This document shows, piece after piece, positions 13,427 to 23,076 of a DNA stretch of 64,000 bases. The notes beneath the pieces were generated by a model. That model was not told the origin of the DNA. It searched no databases and saw only the letters and a program-made list of their open reading frames with translations. The DNA comes from Gardnerella vaginalis (GTDB taxonomy: Bacteria > Actinomycetota > Actinomycetes > Actinomycetales > Bifidobacteriaceae): positions 1 to 64,000 of the forward strand of contig CAMPUL010000003.1 of the NCBI GenBank assembly GCA_946997215.1, written 5' to 3'. How positions within the stretch are numbered: position 1 is the first letter of the stretch; the number at the start of each line of letters is the position of its first letter. The position numbers and the translations under genes were made by a program.

Positions 13427-14527
13427 TTAATGCGGTAAAGCACATGCAAATAATGACAATACAAAAGTCAAAGCACCGAGCATTGCTAACTGTACGCACA
13501 ATGGAAAAGCACTAGCATAATTCCCATTAATAACTGCGTATATTAGCGAGCACGCTTTTTTAATAAACACGCAAGTAGTCAATAGTAACAGAATGCAAGA
13601 AACAACAAACACACCATTATTAAACAATGTATTGCTTAATGCGAAAACAGTTTTATAAGGGTTATCAATACTTAAAAATACGCCTATAAATCGCGAATAG
13701 AACACATATAAAAGCACGTACGCAAATTGTAAAATCGCCACTAAAACAGTAACACAAGTAAACACAACACTGCCCTTGCGCTTGCCAAGCAAAGCCATTG
13801 CAGTAATCTTTTTATGCTGCATATCACTTTCTATGTCTCTTAAATTGTTAATCATCATAAGGCAAGCAGAAAATCCACCTGGAATAAAGGATAATAATAC
13901 GCAAAACACAATTTGCTCAATGCTTGATGCATTTATTGAATCTTTAGAAAAACCACTTGCGTAAAAAAGCGCGCACAATGTTCCCAAAAACGCTACTGGT
14001 CCAAAGAACAAAAATGCGCTAAGCTCTCCCCAACCCCTATATCCGTATGGGTGTGATCCTCCTGCATAAAACCAAGCTGCTATAACACAAATTAATCCAA
14101 GCGGAATAAACATCCAAATTCCACTTCTAATCGTAATAACTAATCCAAAAACACACGATATTAGAGCAGATATGCAAGCAGCATACAACACTGATTTTGG
14201 CTTAATACCAGCATTTGCAAGCCTCCAAGACACGTCACATAGCGCTTTGTTTTCTGCGCTTACATCTCGCTTAGACCTTTGATTATCTAATCCTCGCAAA
14301 CCATCACAATAATCGTTTGCGTAGTTTACGGAAATTTGCATAAAAACAGCAACACACAAACACAAAAACGCTTGCAAAGCAAAATTTTCAACATTATAAG
14401 TCTTTACAAGTATTTGACCGCTAAATAAATACCTTGCAAAAATCGAAATTGCCATAACAACTGGAACAATCCCGATTGGAAGAGTATAAAGTCTTGCACC
14501 TTTAAGCCAAAACTTAATATTAGTCAT
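13427..14527 (-). CDS. MenA/UbiA-family prenyltransferase
   Basis: A 366-residue integral membrane protein of the UbiA superfamily, closest by eye to MenA (1,4-dihydroxy-2-naphthoate prenyltransferase). The first Asp-rich motif is NDYCDGLRGLD (about 71-81), and a second polar motif, NNLRDIESD (about 226-234), follows. I count eight or nine hydrophobic segments. The N-terminal KGARLYTLPIGIVPV matches the MenA start. No other menaquinone gene is in the window, so the acceptor is uncertain; some bifidobacteria appear to keep this gene without a full menaquinone pathway (from memory). It lies 56 bp downstream of the ECF operon end and could be read through from it. Confidence 0.8.
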   Translation of the reverse strand: MTNIKFWLKGARLYTLPIGIVPVVMAISIFARYLFSGQILVKTYNVENFALQAFLCLCVAVFMQISVNYANDYCDGLRGLDNQRSKRDVSAENKALCDVSWRLANAGIKPKSVLYAACISALISCVFGLVITIRSGIWMFIPLGLICVIAAWFYAGGSHPYGYRGWGELSAFLFFGPVAFLGTLCALFYASGFSKDSINASSIEQIVFCVLLSFIPGGFSACLMMINNLRDIESDMQHKKITAMALLGKRKGSVVFTCVTVLVAILQFAYVLLYVFYSRFIGVFLSIDNPYKTVFALSNTLFNNGVFVVSCILLLLTTCVFIKKACSLIYAVINGNYASAFPLCVQLAMLGALTFVLSLFACALPH

Positions 14528-14583: not shown

Positions 14584-15357
14584 TTAGATTATTTGTGGAG
14601 CAAACATAGACGCAAGAATTGGCAAAGCAATCATTAAAACAGATATAACAAGAAGAACAAATCCACGCCAGCCAAAAGGATATTTTCTAAAAGAAGACTT
14701 ACGTGTGCGCAAATAGAATCCTCGCTCTTCTGCAGCTAGCGCACAACTATCTGCTTTACGAACAGACAAAACTAAAAGAGGCACAATCAAAGGCATCATA
14801 AGCTTAATCTTTTTGAAAGGATTCTTTGTATCGAACTCCACTCCTCTTGCCATTTGAGCTTCTGTAATTTGAGACATTTCGTACGCAAAAATAGGAACAA
14901 ATCGCACAGCTGTAGTGATCGTAAAAGCATAGCAATATGGAATGTGTAAGTATTGAACAACAGCATTAGCTAAATCGTTTAATTTTGTAATGCTAAGAAC
15001 ACTTACAAGAGGCAATGCAAAGCAAAAAAGCCTTAAAGATGCTCGCAATGCAACAGAAATTCCTTTTGTGCTAAACCATAAGAACATGTAGTTTCCGCCT
15101 TGAGCAATAACTGTTTGCAAAAAGAACATTACAACGCCAAGAATAAGCATTGCGCGCACAAGAGGAAACAGCGCTTTAAGAATCCCAGCCATAGCCATGC
15201 CAGCAAGAATAAGAACTGCAATAAATACAAGAATGCTAAATTGTTGAGCTATAAAAGCAGACACAACAACGCTTATAGCTAATATGAGTTTTGCAATAGG
15301 ATTTGCTTTGTGAAGAAAAGTTGAGCCTTCGTTATACGTTAAGATTTTAGTTTGCAT
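14584..15357 (-). CDS. ecfT: ECF transporter T component (EcfT)
   Basis: The transmembrane scaffold of an energy-coupling-factor importer, 257 residues from the ATG at 15357, which has CAAGGTG upstream; a frame open nine codons further back has no ribosome site. Four to six hydrophobic segments are visible. The two Ala-Arg-Gly-like coupling motifs that contact the ATPases are MARGVEF (about 172) and AEERGFYL (about 211). It follows the dual ATPase gene by 14 bp and ends the operon leader peptide - S component - S component - EcfA - EcfT. Tryptophan is the inferred substrate of the complex because of the upstream attenuator. Confidence 0.9.
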   Translation of the reverse strand: MQTKILTYNEGSTFLHKANPIAKLILAISVVVSAFIAQQFSILVFIAVLILAGMAMAGILKALFPLVRAMLILGVVMFFLQTVIAQGGNYMFLWFSTKGISVALRASLRLFCFALPLVSVLSITKLNDLANAVVQYLHIPYCYAFTITTAVRFVPIFAYEMSQITEAQMARGVEFDTKNPFKKIKLMMPLIVPLLVLSVRKADSCALAAEERGFYLRTRKSSFRKYPFGWRGFVLLVISVLMIALPILASMFAPQII

Positions 15358-15371
15358 AATTACACCTTGCT

Positions 15372-17240
15372 TTACAAATTGCAACTCTTTTTAAGAGCAT
15401 CAACCAACATATCCCTCTTATACAAGCCTTTACAAGCATCAAAACCATTCTTGACTAAGCCTTGAGATACTGCGCATAAAAGCGGAGCGCATAATGCAGC
15501 TTCATCGCAAATCGCATTGTTTTCAAAAACGCAACTTATACTTCCGTCTTCTAGAATTTTCCCATCGTTTACTACGATTAAGCGCGTTGCAAAGTCAAGA
15601 ACCAATTCCATATCGTGGCAAACCATTATTATGCAACAACCGTGATCTCTAAGGTCTTCTACAACTTGCATAATGCGCAAGCATTCCATGTAGTCTAAGC
15701 CACACGTTGGCTCGTCTAAAACAAGAATCTTAGGCTTAGTTACAACAGTTGCAGCCAATGCAACCATTTGACGCTGTCCTCTAGAAAGCATAAACGGGCT
15801 TGCTTTAGGGTCTAGATTTAGCTTTTCAATCATTTGCATTGCATGATCATTAGCATCTTTAACAGACTCTCCTAAAAGAATGCAACTAAACGCTACTTCT
15901 TCTAAAACAGTATCTTTGCAAAGCTGGCGATCTGGATTTTGGAAAAGCGTAGAAACATAGTGAGCAATTTGGCTAATCTTCATGTTGCTAGTGTCTTTAC
16001 CATCAATAAAAATGTTGCCACTGCTCGCCTTAAGCAAACCGTTGATTAGCTTAGTAACAGTTGTTTTTCCAGCGCCATTTCTTCCAACAAGAGTTACAAG
16101 CTCCCCAGCGTAAGCTTCAAAAGACACGTTTTTTAGCGCACTAACGCCACTTGGGTAGGAAAAACTTACGTTTTTAAGCGAAAGACACGGAGAAGTGTTT
16201 TTTGATTGATCTTGTGCGGAAGATTGTGCGTAGGCTTGCGATTCGTGCGAAAAGTCGCCAGCAACCGCCGATGTGTTTGAATCGCATTCGCTATTATCAA
16301 ATTCACCATGAGAATCACCATGAGAATTACTATTAGAAGTCAAAGATTTTCTACTATTAATCGTATTAACAATAGTATTTACTGTATCTTCTACAGACAC
16401 AGGCAAATCGCTTTTATAGCAAATATTCTCACGCTGCAAATCATTAACCAAATGCGTAGTACGCGGATAATTTATTCCAATAGAATAAAGCAAATCCATG
16501 TTTTTCAACGCTTTCGGTAAAGGTAAATCAAGCGCCAAAGTGCCATTAGAAAGCACAACTAAACGCTTGCAATACTCGCTTAAAAGCGCCACTTTTTGCT
16601 CAATTACAACAACAGTTATTCCAAAATTCTTATTCAAATCTTTAAGAATCGAAAAAATCATTTTAGAAGAAACAGGATCTAAAGCGCACGTAGGCTCATC
16701 TAACACCATAACTTTAGGCTTTAGCGCAAGAATAGCAGCAATCGCAACTTTCTGCTTTTGGCCTCCAGAAAGAGTATCTAAATCGCGGTTGCGCAAATCA
16801 CTAATGCCAACAATTTGCAAAGCTTCATCTATTCGACTTGGTATTTCGCTATGCGCAACGCCAAAGTTTTCTAAGCCAAAAAGAATCTCATCTTCTACGT
16901 TTGCAGCAACCATTTGCGCATCAATATCTTGAATAACAGATCCAATTAAGCAAGCAATGTTAGTTAAAGCAAGATTTTTAGTGTCTTGACCTGCAATTTT
17001 AACGCTTCCTAAGAGTTCGCCAGAATAATGATGCGGAATAGCACCAGAAAAAAGCGAAGCAAGAGTTGTTTTTCCAGATCCTGAAGGGCCAATAATTCCC
17101 ACAAATTCGCCAGATTCTACGCTAAGACTTACATCTTTTAGCGCAAAAGTAGAATCTTGTGCCTTTGAAGAGTCCAAAGAATCATCTTTATTCCGATTCA
17201 CATACTTAAAAGACACATCTTTTAACTCAAGCAAAGGCAC
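15372..17240 (-). CDS. ECF transporter dual ATPase (EcfA-EcfA' fusion)
   Basis: A 622-residue protein with two ABC ATPase domains. Domain 1 (about 1-260): Walker A GPSGSGKTT, signature LSGGQKQK, Walker B VMVLDEPT. A Ser/Asn-rich linker (about 290-350) joins domain 2 (about 350-600): Walker A GRNGAGKTT, signature LSRGQRQM, which departs from the LSGGQ consensus, and LVLDEPTCGLD. It powers the importer with the EcfT encoded 14 bp downstream and the two S components upstream. The start ATG is close to the stop of the preceding S-component gene (145-bp spacer). Confidence 0.93.
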   Translation of the reverse strand: MPLLELKDVSFKYVNRNKDDSLDSSKAQDSTFALKDVSLSVESGEFVGIIGPSGSGKTTLASLFSGAIPHHYSGELLGSVKIAGQDTKNLALTNIACLIGSVIQDIDAQMVAANVEDEILFGLENFGVAHSEIPSRIDEALQIVGISDLRNRDLDTLSGGQKQKVAIAAILALKPKVMVLDEPTCALDPVSSKMIFSILKDLNKNFGITVVVIEQKVALLSEYCKRLVVLSNGTLALDLPLPKALKNMDLLYSIGINYPRTTHLVNDLQRENICYKSDLPVSVEDTVNTIVNTINSRKSLTSNSNSHGDSHGEFDNSECDSNTSAVAGDFSHESQAYAQSSAQDQSKNTSPCLSLKNVSFSYPSGVSALKNVSFEAYAGELVTLVGRNGAGKTTVTKLINGLLKASSGNIFIDGKDTSNMKISQIAHYVSTLFQNPDRQLCKDTVLEEVAFSCILLGESVKDANDHAMQMIEKLNLDPKASPFMLSRGQRQMVALAATVVTKPKILVLDEPTCGLDYMECLRIMQVVEDLRDHGCCIIMVCHDMELVLDFATRLIVVNDGKILEDGSISCVFENNAICDEAALCAPLLCAVSQGLVKNGFDACKGLYKRDMLVDALKKSCNL

Positions 17241-17385: not shown

Positions 17386-17967
17386 TTACTTGTGTAGAAC
17401 GAGTCGAATTGGAGTGTAAAGAACTTCAACAACAACAGCATTAAACACAGCAGTTCCCAAAATGATTGGAAGCATAACAAGAATCGTCTTAGGAGAATGA
17501 AGAACAAAGAAAGATGCAGTAGATGCAAATATTAAACCAGAAACAACTGTAGTTATAAAAGTTGCTATAAGTGGGAAAATACTGAACTTTCTAGCAGCAT
17601 CCTTAGGGAAAACGCGAACATAAGCCATAATCATCAAAGTCATAACAATTGCTGCTGGAATATCGCAAACATAATTAAGACCAGGAATAGATGCGTTAAA
17701 TTGCATTAAAGTTGCAGCCAATGCGCCAATAATCGCACCTTGAATAACATTTGGACGAACCAGCAAAATCGCAAGGCAGAATGATGCGATTAAAAAGTTT
17801 GGTTTAATATTTCCGATTGAAAGCGCTTTTGCAACTGTAAAATCAAGAATACATCCTGCTGCAAAAAGAACAGCAACCAACACCAAAGACGTAACATCTA
17901 AAGAGTGCTTTTTAATACTTACAGCATTAATCATGCTACCTGCATGTCCATTAATTCCCTGATTCAT
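17386..17967 (-). CDS. ECF S component, copy 1 (putative tryptophan-specific)
   Basis: A 193-residue, highly hydrophobic protein with about six membrane segments, the size of an ECF substrate-binding S component. The only soluble part is a 25-residue N-terminus. It is a paralogue of the gene at 18119-18748: the last 32 residues are identical and most of the rest matches, with near-identical DNA. Both genes share the same ribosome site and start (AAAGGAGAA, ATGAATCAG). Placement between an attenuator with Trp codons and ecfA-ecfT points to tryptophan or a close derivative. I do not recognise a named S-component family with certainty. Confidence 0.8.
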   Translation of the reverse strand: MNQGINGHAGSMINAVSIKKHSLDVTSLVLVAVLFAAGCILDFTVAKALSIGNIKPNFLIASFCLAILLVRPNVIQGAIIGALAATLMQFNASIPGLNYVCDIPAAIVMTLMIMAYVRVFPKDAARKFSIFPLIATFITTVVSGLIFASTASFFVLHSPKTILVMLPIILGTAVFNAVVVEVLYTPIRLVLHK

Positions 17968-18018
17968 AATCTTCTCCTTTATGTTGCGATAATTAAGTTT
18001 TAATTATCGACTTTTGAT

Positions 18019-18068
18019 GTTTATTTACGTTTATTTACATTCATTTATGTTTGTTTATATTTGTTTAC
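18019..18068. repeat. 10-bp degenerate tandem repeat between the S-component genes
   Basis: Five 10-bp units based on GTTTATTTAC (18019, 18029, 18039, 18049, 18059). It occupies part of the 151-bp spacer between the two paralogous genes. No function is evident. Confidence 0.7.
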
Positions 18069-18118
18069 GTTGATTAAAGTTAATTTATTTCTTATTCTTC
18101 AATTTCTTCAATGTTGAT

Positions 18119-18748
18119 TTACTTGTGCAAAACGAGTCGAATTGGAGTGTAAAGAACTTCAACAACAACAGCATTAAACACAGCAGTTCCCAAAATGATT
18201 GGAAGCATAACAAGAACAGTGTTTGGAGAGTGAAGAATAAAGAAAGATGCGATTGTTGCAAAAATCATTCCAGAAATAACAGTTGCAACAAACGTAGAGA
18301 TAAATGGGAACACACTAAACTTTCTAGCAGCATCCTTAGGGAAAGCTTTTAAGTATCCCATAAGCACTAACGTCATAATGATTGCTGCTGGAATATCGCA
18401 AGCGTATTCAAGACCAGGAATCGAAGTATTAAATTGAATTAAAGTAGCAGCTAATGCGCCAATAATCGCACCTTGAATAACATTTGGACGAACAAGCAAA
18501 ATAGACAAGCAGAACGATGCAATAACAAATTCTGGCTGAATATTTCCAATCGAAAGCGACTTTGCAACTGTAAAGTCAAGAATGCATCCTGCTGCAAAAA
18601 GAACAGCAACTAGCACCAAAGACGTAATATCTAAAGCGTGCTTTTTAACATTTACGCCTTTTAGCAAAGTAGCTGCTTGATTAATTTCGGACTGTGCAGA
18701 TGTTGCATCTACGTTAGTGGACTCTACGTTAGTGGACTCCTGATTCAT
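18119..18748 (-). CDS. ECF S component, copy 2 (putative tryptophan-specific)
   Basis: A 209-residue membrane protein, first structural gene after the Trp leader. I start at ATG 18748, with AAAGGAG 8 bases upstream; an open frame continues 14 codons further without a ribosome site. The N-terminus has a short repeat (ESTNVESTNVD) before about six membrane segments. It is closely similar to copy 1 throughout, including the segments FAAGCILDFTVAK and LVRPNVIQGAIIGALAATL. Two S components with one EcfA/EcfT set could give two related specificities or simply more dosage. Confidence 0.8.
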   Translation of the reverse strand: MNQESTNVESTNVDATSAQSEINQAATLLKGVNVKKHALDITSLVLVAVLFAAGCILDFTVAKSLSIGNIQPEFVIASFCLSILLVRPNVIQGAIIGALAATLIQFNTSIPGLEYACDIPAAIIMTLVLMGYLKAFPKDAARKFSVFPFISTFVATVISGMIFATIASFFILHSPNTVLVMLPIILGTAVFNAVVVEVLYTPIRLVLHK

Positions 18749-18895
18749 GATTTTCTCCTTTACGTAAATTTTTACGTTGTTTTTCAACAATTTTGATTTG
18801 AAAATTGTTATTGGTTTTTGATTGTTATTGGTTTAGATTGTTTAGATTGTTTTAGATTTGGATTAAAACCAAATGGATTTTGCGTTTTAGGATAT

Positions 18896-18932
18896 AAAAA
18901 AGACCCCTAGGTTTACCCTAGAGGTCTTTTAT
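18896..18932 (-). terminator. Attenuator terminator of the Trp-leader ECF operon
   Basis: On the minus strand AAAAGACCTCTAGG (18917-18930) pairs fully with CCTAGGGGTCTTTT (18898-18911), one pair being U-G, with a 5-base loop and a trailing T run. It lies 27 nt after the leader-peptide stop and about 150 nt before the first S-component gene, so it must be bypassed for expression. Confidence 0.9.
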
Positions 18933-18970
18933 AAGCCTAAACAAGCAGCTTCTAAAACTTTAGAGTAAAC
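18911..18970 (-). promoter_or_regulatory. Antiterminator pairing of the Trp attenuator
   Basis: In the minus-strand transcript GUUUACUCUA (18961-18970, the last codons of the leader peptide) can pair with UAGGGUAAAC (18911-18920, the 3' end of the terminator's first arm plus its loop): ten pairs, one G-U. The pairing excludes the terminator. A ribosome stalled at the Trp codons (18990-18998) leaves the first element free; a ribosome that reaches the stop codon covers it. This is the logic of trp attenuation. The competing early hairpin was not identified. Confidence 0.7.
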
Positions 18971-19049
18971 TACGCCAAAGAGAAGTCTGCCACCACCACA
19001 TACGAGCAGCATCAAAAGTATCGCGAGCTTGAGCATTCATGTTACGCAT
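18960..19049 (-). CDS. Tryptophan-rich leader peptide
   Basis: A 29-codon reading frame with a strong ribosome site (AAGGAGG at 19058-19064, 8 bases from ATG). It begins MRNMNAQARD and has three consecutive TGG codons in MWWWQTS (codons 18-20) and a fourth in LWRSLL (codon 25), four Trp in 29 residues. It ends 27 nt before a strong terminator and is followed by two ECF S-component genes. The arrangement is that of a classical trp-operon attenuator leader. No T-box consensus is present. The promoter is not resolved: TTGACC lies on the minus strand at 19099-19104 but no good -10 box follows at the right distance. Confidence 0.88.
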   Translation of the reverse strand: MRNMNAQARDTFDAARMWWWQTSLWRSLL

Positions 19050-19378
19050 GATAGCCGCCTCCTTAAATACTTTAGCTGCAAAAGCTAAATGCTTACGTGG
19101 TCAATCACAAACCTAACACCGTAAAATTTACGATATGCGTTTGTGTTGTGTTCGATGCTAACACCATAAAAGTACAAATGCAAACAAAAATATAAAATTA
19201 GCAAAAAATCACGCAAAAACACGTAAAACAATTTCAATCAAATCCGCACAATTCCAAGCAAAACGCCGTAAGCACATAAAACGCATAGTTTAAGTTTTTA
19301 CACGCTTATAAAAATCTTAAACAAAGCTTATATAAAACAACCTCAATCCCTAGCAACGTGTATACTTTCACAAGTTGC

Positions 19379-22826: not shown

Positions 22827-22903
22827 TGTGTGCCTTTCATTCCACGCTGTGAATTAGAAAATCACCTAAATCACAGAATTACCGTAGGCACGGGAAAAAC
22901 TGA

Positions 22904-22983
22904 CCTCCGTGCGCCAGTATTACCTGGATTCACGTTCAAGCGGTTTCTCTCAGCTTTACGAATTAGCGCAAAGCACCCGTGTC
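22904..22983 (-). ncRNA. TPP (THI-box) riboswitch
   Basis: The minus strand carries the thiamine-pyrophosphate aptamer: GGGTGC at the 5' side, the invariant CTGAGA (22948-22953), the linking CGCTTGAACGTGAATCC and the pyrophosphate-site GGTAATACTGGCGCA. It precedes ykoE by about 80 nt. A second hairpin uses the 3' side of P1: GCACGG (22907-22912) with CCGUGC (22888-22893). When P1 forms, the released GUGCCU (22886-22891) can pair with AGGCAC (22830-22835), which overlaps the ykoE ribosome site. Translational control is therefore likely; this last step is inference. Confidence 0.92.
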
Positions 22984-23076
22984 GAGTGAAGATTCTACGG
23001 CATTGTGTAGACTCGCGCACAAAATACATCAAAACCCATATATCCAGGTACTTTATGCGCGAGTTAGAACTTACAA

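Follow-up and report, generated by a model that had tools for sequence, protein, structure and literature searches.

Ribosome-mediated attenuators with double or triple UGG codons in the leader peptide are described for the tryptophan (Trp) biosynthesis operons of Corynebacterium and Streptomyces and for Streptomyces trpS in the available text of PMC1262725; its main text never uses the word "transporter." Histidine leader-peptide attenuators are reported on his operons of Firmicutes in the available text of PMC9413887. The TrpP (YhaG) protein of Bacillus subtilis is a Trp importer characterized by genetics, according to the available text of PMC13170310. We present here an operon of Gardnerella vaginalis in which a leader peptide with three tandem Trp codons and an intrinsic terminator precede the genes of a TrpP-family energy-coupling factor (ECF) importer. 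The operon lies on the minus strand of a stretch of 64,000 nucleotides (nt) (assembly GCA_946997215.1, contig CAMPUL010000003.1, positions 1 to 64,000), called the window below. From its sequence features, it is very probably under classical ribosome-mediated Trp attenuation and would be switched on by a shortage of charged tRNA-Trp.

A preliminary description of this DNA had placed attenuators of this kind at trp biosynthesis, which agrees with the available text of PMC1262725 but is too narrow, since trpS is also predicted there to carry one. The Gardnerella leader shares with the actinobacterial attenuators of that text a tandem-UGG leader peptide, a GC-rich terminator with poly-U, and an overlapping antiterminator. 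It differs in what follows: those attenuators front biosynthesis and tRNA synthetase genes, whereas this one fronts a TrpP-type ECF importer. With B. subtilis TrpP the Gardnerella system shares the protein family (PF17099) and, as predicted here, the import of Trp under repression by Trp. In B. subtilis, TRAP blocks translation, according to the available text of PMC13170310; the Gardnerella operon would instead combine a ribosome-mediated transcription attenuator with a dedicated ECF module. The Rfam families RF00513 (Trp_leader) and RF04312 (trpB motif) also have a terminator and an upstream hairpin near Trp genes, and RF04312 is described as a riboswitch candidate of Firmicutes and Fusobacteria, attenuation not being ruled out, in the available text of PMC11109978. 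Both were rejected for the window leader, with scores of 17.9 (cut-off 41) and 33 (cut-off 59), respectively. No Rfam family matched this leader at gathering thresholds, and neither of the two matched in 12 further leader loci.

PF17099 was matched in 2 of 14 control genomes, those of B. subtilis and Methanosarcina acetivorans. Corynebacterium glutamicum was among the 14; its Cg3357 bears the name TrpP and adjoins trp genes, yet PF17099 had no match in that genome. Cg3357 was set aside as a mere namesake, and its authors exclude Trp transport in the available text of PMC11995493. Among the matches listed, open-access titles and abstracts contained no TrpP-type ECF importer under a leader-peptide attenuator; the subscription literature lies mostly outside this search. 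Surveys of ECF transporters count TrpP among the S components. The mechanism and the protein family are each already known; their combination appears to be new and, to judge by the genomes compared, widely conserved.

Leader peptide and probable attenuator of the window

The leader open reading frame (ORF) (18960..19049, minus strand, as are all features of the operon) encodes 29 residues, MRNMNAQARDTFDAARMWWWQTSLWRSLL, and is immediately preceded by the Shine-Dalgarno (SD) sequence AAGGAGG. Three tandem TGG codons, which encode the Trp run WWW, were read from the sequence at 18990..18998, and a fourth TGG at 18977-18975. The intrinsic terminator (18898..18930) has a 14-bp stem, a 5-nt loop, and a subsequent T-run, with a folding energy of -21.4 kcal/mol. 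The antiterminator 5′ arm, GUUUACUCUA (18961..18970), spans the leader stop codon. Its 3′ arm, UAGGGUAAAC (18911..18920), is made up of the top of the terminator 5′ arm, the loop, and the first base of the terminator 3′ arm. The two arms form ten standard pairs, one of them G-U. The preliminary description had reported this leader with its four TGG codons, the strong ribosome site, the terminator, and the ten-pair antiterminator; all were recovered, but the terminator begins 29 nt after the leader stop codon rather than 27. A protector hairpin of the 1:2 type (18944..18991) is present in the minimum free energy and centroid folds and would sequester the antiterminator arm in ribosome-free RNA. 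Folding of the 171-nt leader region is more stable than that of 200 of 200 shuffles (z = -2.97). Two features by which a ribosome-mediated attenuator is judged were thereby found: a putative short leader ORF in which codons for the regulating amino acid stand in tandem, and an intrinsic terminator between the leader and the structural genes.

A ribosome stalled at WWW would leave the segment around the stop codon free. The freed segment would pair with the terminator 5′ arm and loop, and RNA polymerase would read through into the genes for the first S component (S1), the second (S2), EcfAA′, and EcfT. A ribosome that reached the stop codon would cover the segment, and the terminator would form. 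In the window, the terminator would also form without translation, the protector hairpin then holding the segment. Folds of the nascent RNA were computed by partition function for four ribosome states in seven sequences, scored by an index of summed pairing across the arm, which should not be read as a probability. In the window, a stall at the Trp codons gave the antiterminator, a ribosome at the stop codon gave none, and the arm was mostly sequestered when no ribosome was present. The ribosome-at-stop state abolished the antiterminator in all seven folded sequences. Protection in the absence of a ribosome was present in the window and in loci L057 and L085.

Conservation of the leader and its stems

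In each of the 12 named loci, the WWW leader precedes S1; the records read Gardnerella or Bifidobacteriaceae bacterium for ten of these loci, Atopobium for one, and Lancefieldella for one. PF17099 was matched at an E value of 0.001 or better in 12 of 189 Bifidobacteriaceae genomes, here called Gardnerella-like from their resemblance to the named loci, and all 12 have the WWW leader at the TrpP-ECF operon (L013-L024). The samples overlap: named loci L001-L010 probably coincide with the Gardnerella-like genomes, and L011 and L012 with G406 and G721. WWW and the later Trp are retained across the Gardnerella loci. The SD-ATG-WWW pattern had exactly one match in 11 of the 12 Gardnerella-like genomes, always upstream of TrpP, and the reversed pattern, used as a control, had one match across the 12. 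The twelfth genome, G120, also has the leader, which was picked up by a looser scan.

TrpP was detected with the family profile in 162 of 296 genomes of the class Coriobacteriia. The leader scan covered 132 upstream regions from 131 of these; the other 31 genomes comprise 30 with unlisted places and G666 (L081), at a contig edge. A small ORF with WWW was found in 96 of the 132 regions, compared with 8 of 132 on the reverse strand and 0 of 660 Markov shuffles. By family, the leader is present in 48 of 50 regions of f41, 46 of 48 of f20 (94 of 98 together), 2 of 33 of f27, and 0 of 1 of f95. Family f20 is taken as Atopobiaceae, as for named loci L011 and L012; f27 is probably Eggerthellaceae, and f41 likely includes Coriobacterium glomerans. 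Conservation of the Trp run among orthologues, a check proposed beforehand in the preliminary description, was thus observed in the named loci, in L013-L024, and in most f41 and f20 regions. Two regions missed by the scan still have Trp leaders (WW in G702 and W-A-W in G718), and WWW is also present in G733, an f27 genome outside the 132 regions. In L158 and L171, the leader lies about 790 nt upstream, perhaps owing to an intervening second S gene. Leaderless TrpP-ECF operons of f27 include L030, L031, L034-L036, L117, L133, and L136, among others, with no Rfam match where searched; a search of 20 loci (16 of f27, one of them with a leader, 2 of f20, 1 of f41, and 1 of f95) yielded no T-box or other Rfam element.

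The residues around WWW diverge widely between Gardnerella and Coriobacteriia; the conserved feature is therefore the codons themselves. If the ORF with WWW were a chance occurrence, the terminator would just end transcription from upstream. A simple consensus scan of the minus strand up to 19400 found no sigma-70-like promoter upstream of the leader, as such a reading would allow. It is set against the single pattern match at TrpP in nearly every Gardnerella-like genome, the conservation into another bacterial class with changed flanking residues, and the empty shuffles, and we give it almost no credence.

Under a stricter rule, 108 of 145 sequences have a leader. A terminator was found in 106 of these 108, the script returning none for the other two. 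Covariation was assessed in alignment A3, which holds 54 of 56 representatives (L004 and L083, with hairpins stretched by the script, were omitted). Of the 15 terminator pairs, 13 are changed on both sides; the both-side-change cells number 48, compared with 16.4 in shuffles, and 0 of 500 shuffles scored as high. Measured back from the last base of the stop codon, the antiterminator arm begins at 10 to 15 nt in 71 of the 87 unique sequences, compared with 13% of shuffles. A further nine arms begin at 18 to 24 nt, the site of most Gardnerella arms and a range reached by 20% of shuffles. Paired cells amount to 76.7% in register, compared with 33 to 51% when the arms are slid. As read from the alignment, one pair changes from A-U to G-C in some Gardnerella loci, and strains 1500E and NR021 have lost pairs at the end of the stem where this change lies. 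The expectation that both stems covary among orthologues was strongly supported for the terminator; for the antiterminator, position and complementarity are kept, with weak covariation.

A leader of the TnaC type would act in the opposite sense, the nascent WWW peptide stalling its ribosome at high free Trp so that Trp induces the operon. A Trp-bearing leader peptide by itself would not disclose the sign of control. The run of three Trp codons, the intrinsic terminator, and the conserved distance at which the antiterminator arm lies over the stop codon argue against this type, as do the variable residues around WWW, unlike those of a sequence-specific arrest peptide. Systems of the tna type also use Rho. 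Induction by Trp is accordingly considered very improbable, and attenuation relieved by scarcity of charged tRNA-Trp is preferred.

Transporter genes and tryptophan biosynthesis

Four genes follow the leader. S1 (18119..18748; ATG at 18748 with AGGAG upstream) scored 27.3 bits against PF17099, for which the curated cut-off is 27.2, and S2 (17386..17967) scored 33.7 bits and is 77% identical to S1 in alignment A1. The fused EcfA-EcfA′ ATPase (15372..17240; 622 residues) matched TIGR04520 and TIGR04521 above cut-off, and EcfT (14584..15384), which overlaps the ATPase gene by 13 nt, matched PF02361 with 86.3 bits. These matches agree with the two S components, dual ATPase, and EcfT of the preliminary description. 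The S-component family, which that description could not name, proved to have a name: both proteins exceed the cut-off of PF17099, "Tryptophan transporter TrpP," S1 narrowly. The closest named relative of S1 is from Gardnerella piotii (97%).

A PDB sequence search with S1 found no relative, only two lectin matches with E values of 0.8 to 1. The AlphaFold model of S1 has a predicted local distance difference test (pLDDT) score of 79.3 and a predicted template modeling (pTM) score of 0.72. The top ten PDB matches of the model in Foldseek have template modeling (TM) scores by query length of 0.43 to 0.55. Nine of them are titled as ECF S subunits (RibU, ThiT, and others); the tenth, 4huq_S, is titled just as a transporter and is presumably an ECF complex. 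The AxxxA motif docks S components on EcfT, according to the available text of PMC11109136. It is present in helix 1 of the S component, where A46 and A50 are invariant in the 51 rows of alignment A4. The modeled fold and the motif are both consistent with an ECF S component. EcfA, EcfA′, and EcfT are linked to TrpP in the window, and an EcfA match lies beside TrpP in each of L001-L048. Three of the 10 loci L001-L010 have a second S component; some Coriobacteriia also carry a second S copy, which branches apart in the S-protein tree. In this tree (24 rows), Gardnerella groups, without resolution, with first S components from the leader-bearing families. Because the branch is long, transfer is no more than suggested.

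Among the Bifidobacteriaceae genomes, trpA (TIGR00262) was above cut-off in 143 of 189 and in none of the 12 with TrpP (Fisher p = 1.3e-8, kinship ignored). Four of the 12 (G091, G113, G121, and G122) have trpB above cut-off without trpA, and eight have neither; indole salvage is possible in the four. In Coriobacteriia, trpA was above cut-off in 24 of 162 genomes with TrpP versus 73 of 134 without it, kinship again being ignored.

Two neighboring features were also observed. A gene of the UbiA/MenA prenyltransferase family (13427-14527, minus strand) begins 56 nt past EcfT in the window and is possibly in the same transcript as the ECF operon. Such a gene lies downstream of EcfT in 10 of 10 loci L001-L010 (in two pieces in L006) and was not found at L011 or L012. 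A thiamine pyrophosphate (TPP) riboswitch (22888-22990, minus strand), exactly at its gathering score, precedes a PF09819 gene, which we take to be of the YkoE type, and a large ATPase-EcfT fusion. This second ECF operon adjoins the TrpP operon.

Related leaders, predicted substrate, and biological meaning

Covariance model R1 was built on 54 leaders, among them the window leader and those of two further Gardnerella sequences. Exactly one strong site (E at most 3.8e-11) was found in every Gardnerella-like genome (12 of 12), and the other 177 Bifidobacteriaceae genomes gave weak matches in nine alone (best E 4e-5). Matches at 1e-5 or better were found in 76 of 197 Coriobacteriia genomes. Twenty-two places were examined, 21 of them away from listed TrpP genes and one in G718, where the leader had been missed by the WWW scan; 20 were fetched, G666:C8 and G309:C34 being left out. 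The gene that follows is TrpB-like in 13 of the 20, of the sodium:neurotransmitter symporter family in 3, and TrpP in 2; 2 of the 20 have no leader.

The TrpB-like genes are preceded by Trp codons and a terminator in L178-L186 and L188-L191, with WWW in all except L180, which has WW. The codons lie in putative leader frames in which a stop follows within a few codons, and these peptides have little similarity to the TrpP leaders. Family libraries were searched with seven of the 13 proteins, each of which matched TIGR01415 (trpB_rel) above cut-off; the other six were assigned by tblastn. We assume that these are TrpB2 proteins with a role in indole salvage. The symporter genes (L175, L176, and L177), from one genus (g238) of f27, each follow a WWW leader and a terminator. 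Two of the three were run against the libraries and matched PF00209 and NF037979. For one of the genes, the best relative with a solved structure is 4us3, presumably the Trp-binding transporter MhsT. The Trp leaders of Coriobacteriia likely form a Trp regulon. The presence of related Trp leaders on a trpB-like enzyme and a probable amino acid symporter supports Trp as both signal and substrate.

We predict that the importer carries L-Trp into cells that cannot make it. This substrate is independently supported by membership in PF17099, by the absence of trpA in relatives, and by the related leaders on trpB-like and sodium symporter family genes. The attenuator could be real and Trp starvation only its signal, with one or both S components carrying a Trp relative such as indole, kynurenine, 5-hydroxytryptophan, or another aromatic amino acid. 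The occurrence of two S components of 77% identity within one operon, the low PF17099 scores, and the four Gardnerella-like genomes with trpB and no trpA, which could use indole, fit such a substrate. However, PF17099 is the family of the B. subtilis Trp importer, and the other Coriobacteriia genes behind related leaders are trpB-like and sodium symporter family genes. For indole in particular, the eight Gardnerella-like genomes with neither trpA nor trpB could not use that enzyme to synthesize Trp from it. Import of a Trp relative is considered unlikely, and L-Trp is the substrate adopted here.

Several results weigh against a Trp-attenuated Trp importer. For the attenuator, the covariation score of the antiterminator is equaled or exceeded by 37 of 500 shuffles and its pair-type count by 280 of 500. 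In single sequences, its energy is often no better than that of shuffled arms; in 25 of 106 sequences, 5 or fewer of 100 arm shuffles were as good. The antiterminator forms without a ribosome in four of the seven folded sequences (L003, L010, L141, and L053), and the protector hairpin is not general across them. In full-length RNA, the terminator dominates every ribosome state in six of the seven, the exception being L141. Because the terminator wins at full length in nearly all sequences, the switch must be kinetic, acting during RNA synthesis. The TrpP-ECF operons of f27 mostly lack the leader, so TrpP does not require it. For the transporter, S1 clears the PF17099 cut-off by 0.1 bit, only 6 of the 12 TrpP-bearing Bifidobacteriaceae genomes have a match above cut-off, and no NCBIfam model names either S component. 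Foldseek gave no match at an E value of 0.001 or better, the S-subunit matches ranging from 0.04 to 0.24. The AxxxA alanines vary in the wider alignment A1, and one second-copy S protein has serine at the first position. The trpA correlations are uncorrected for phylogeny, and Gardnerella is a single clade. Of the 95 Coriobacteriia genomes examined that bear the leader, 8 have trpA; auxotrophy is therefore not universal.

We lean, with some reserve, toward a single Trp-attenuator family that runs an acquisition regulon across two classes of Actinomycetota, comprising the TrpP-ECF importer, TrpB-like indole salvage, and a sodium-coupled amino acid symporter, and toward a trpA-less Gardnerella ancestor that acquired the importer and the switch together. 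Most known ECF importers handle vitamins or metals, and the substrates of S components are often unproven. Here the Trp-codon leader would identify the substrate of an S component through its regulation, without drawing on homology, and homology leads to the same answer. If the regulon reading is true, this would be an amino acid ECF importer controlled by leader-peptide attenuation. Leader peptides could be read in this way to find substrates for further orphan S components. For Gardnerella, whose niche is one in which host and microbes compete for Trp, the operon predicts a controlled Trp auxotrophy.

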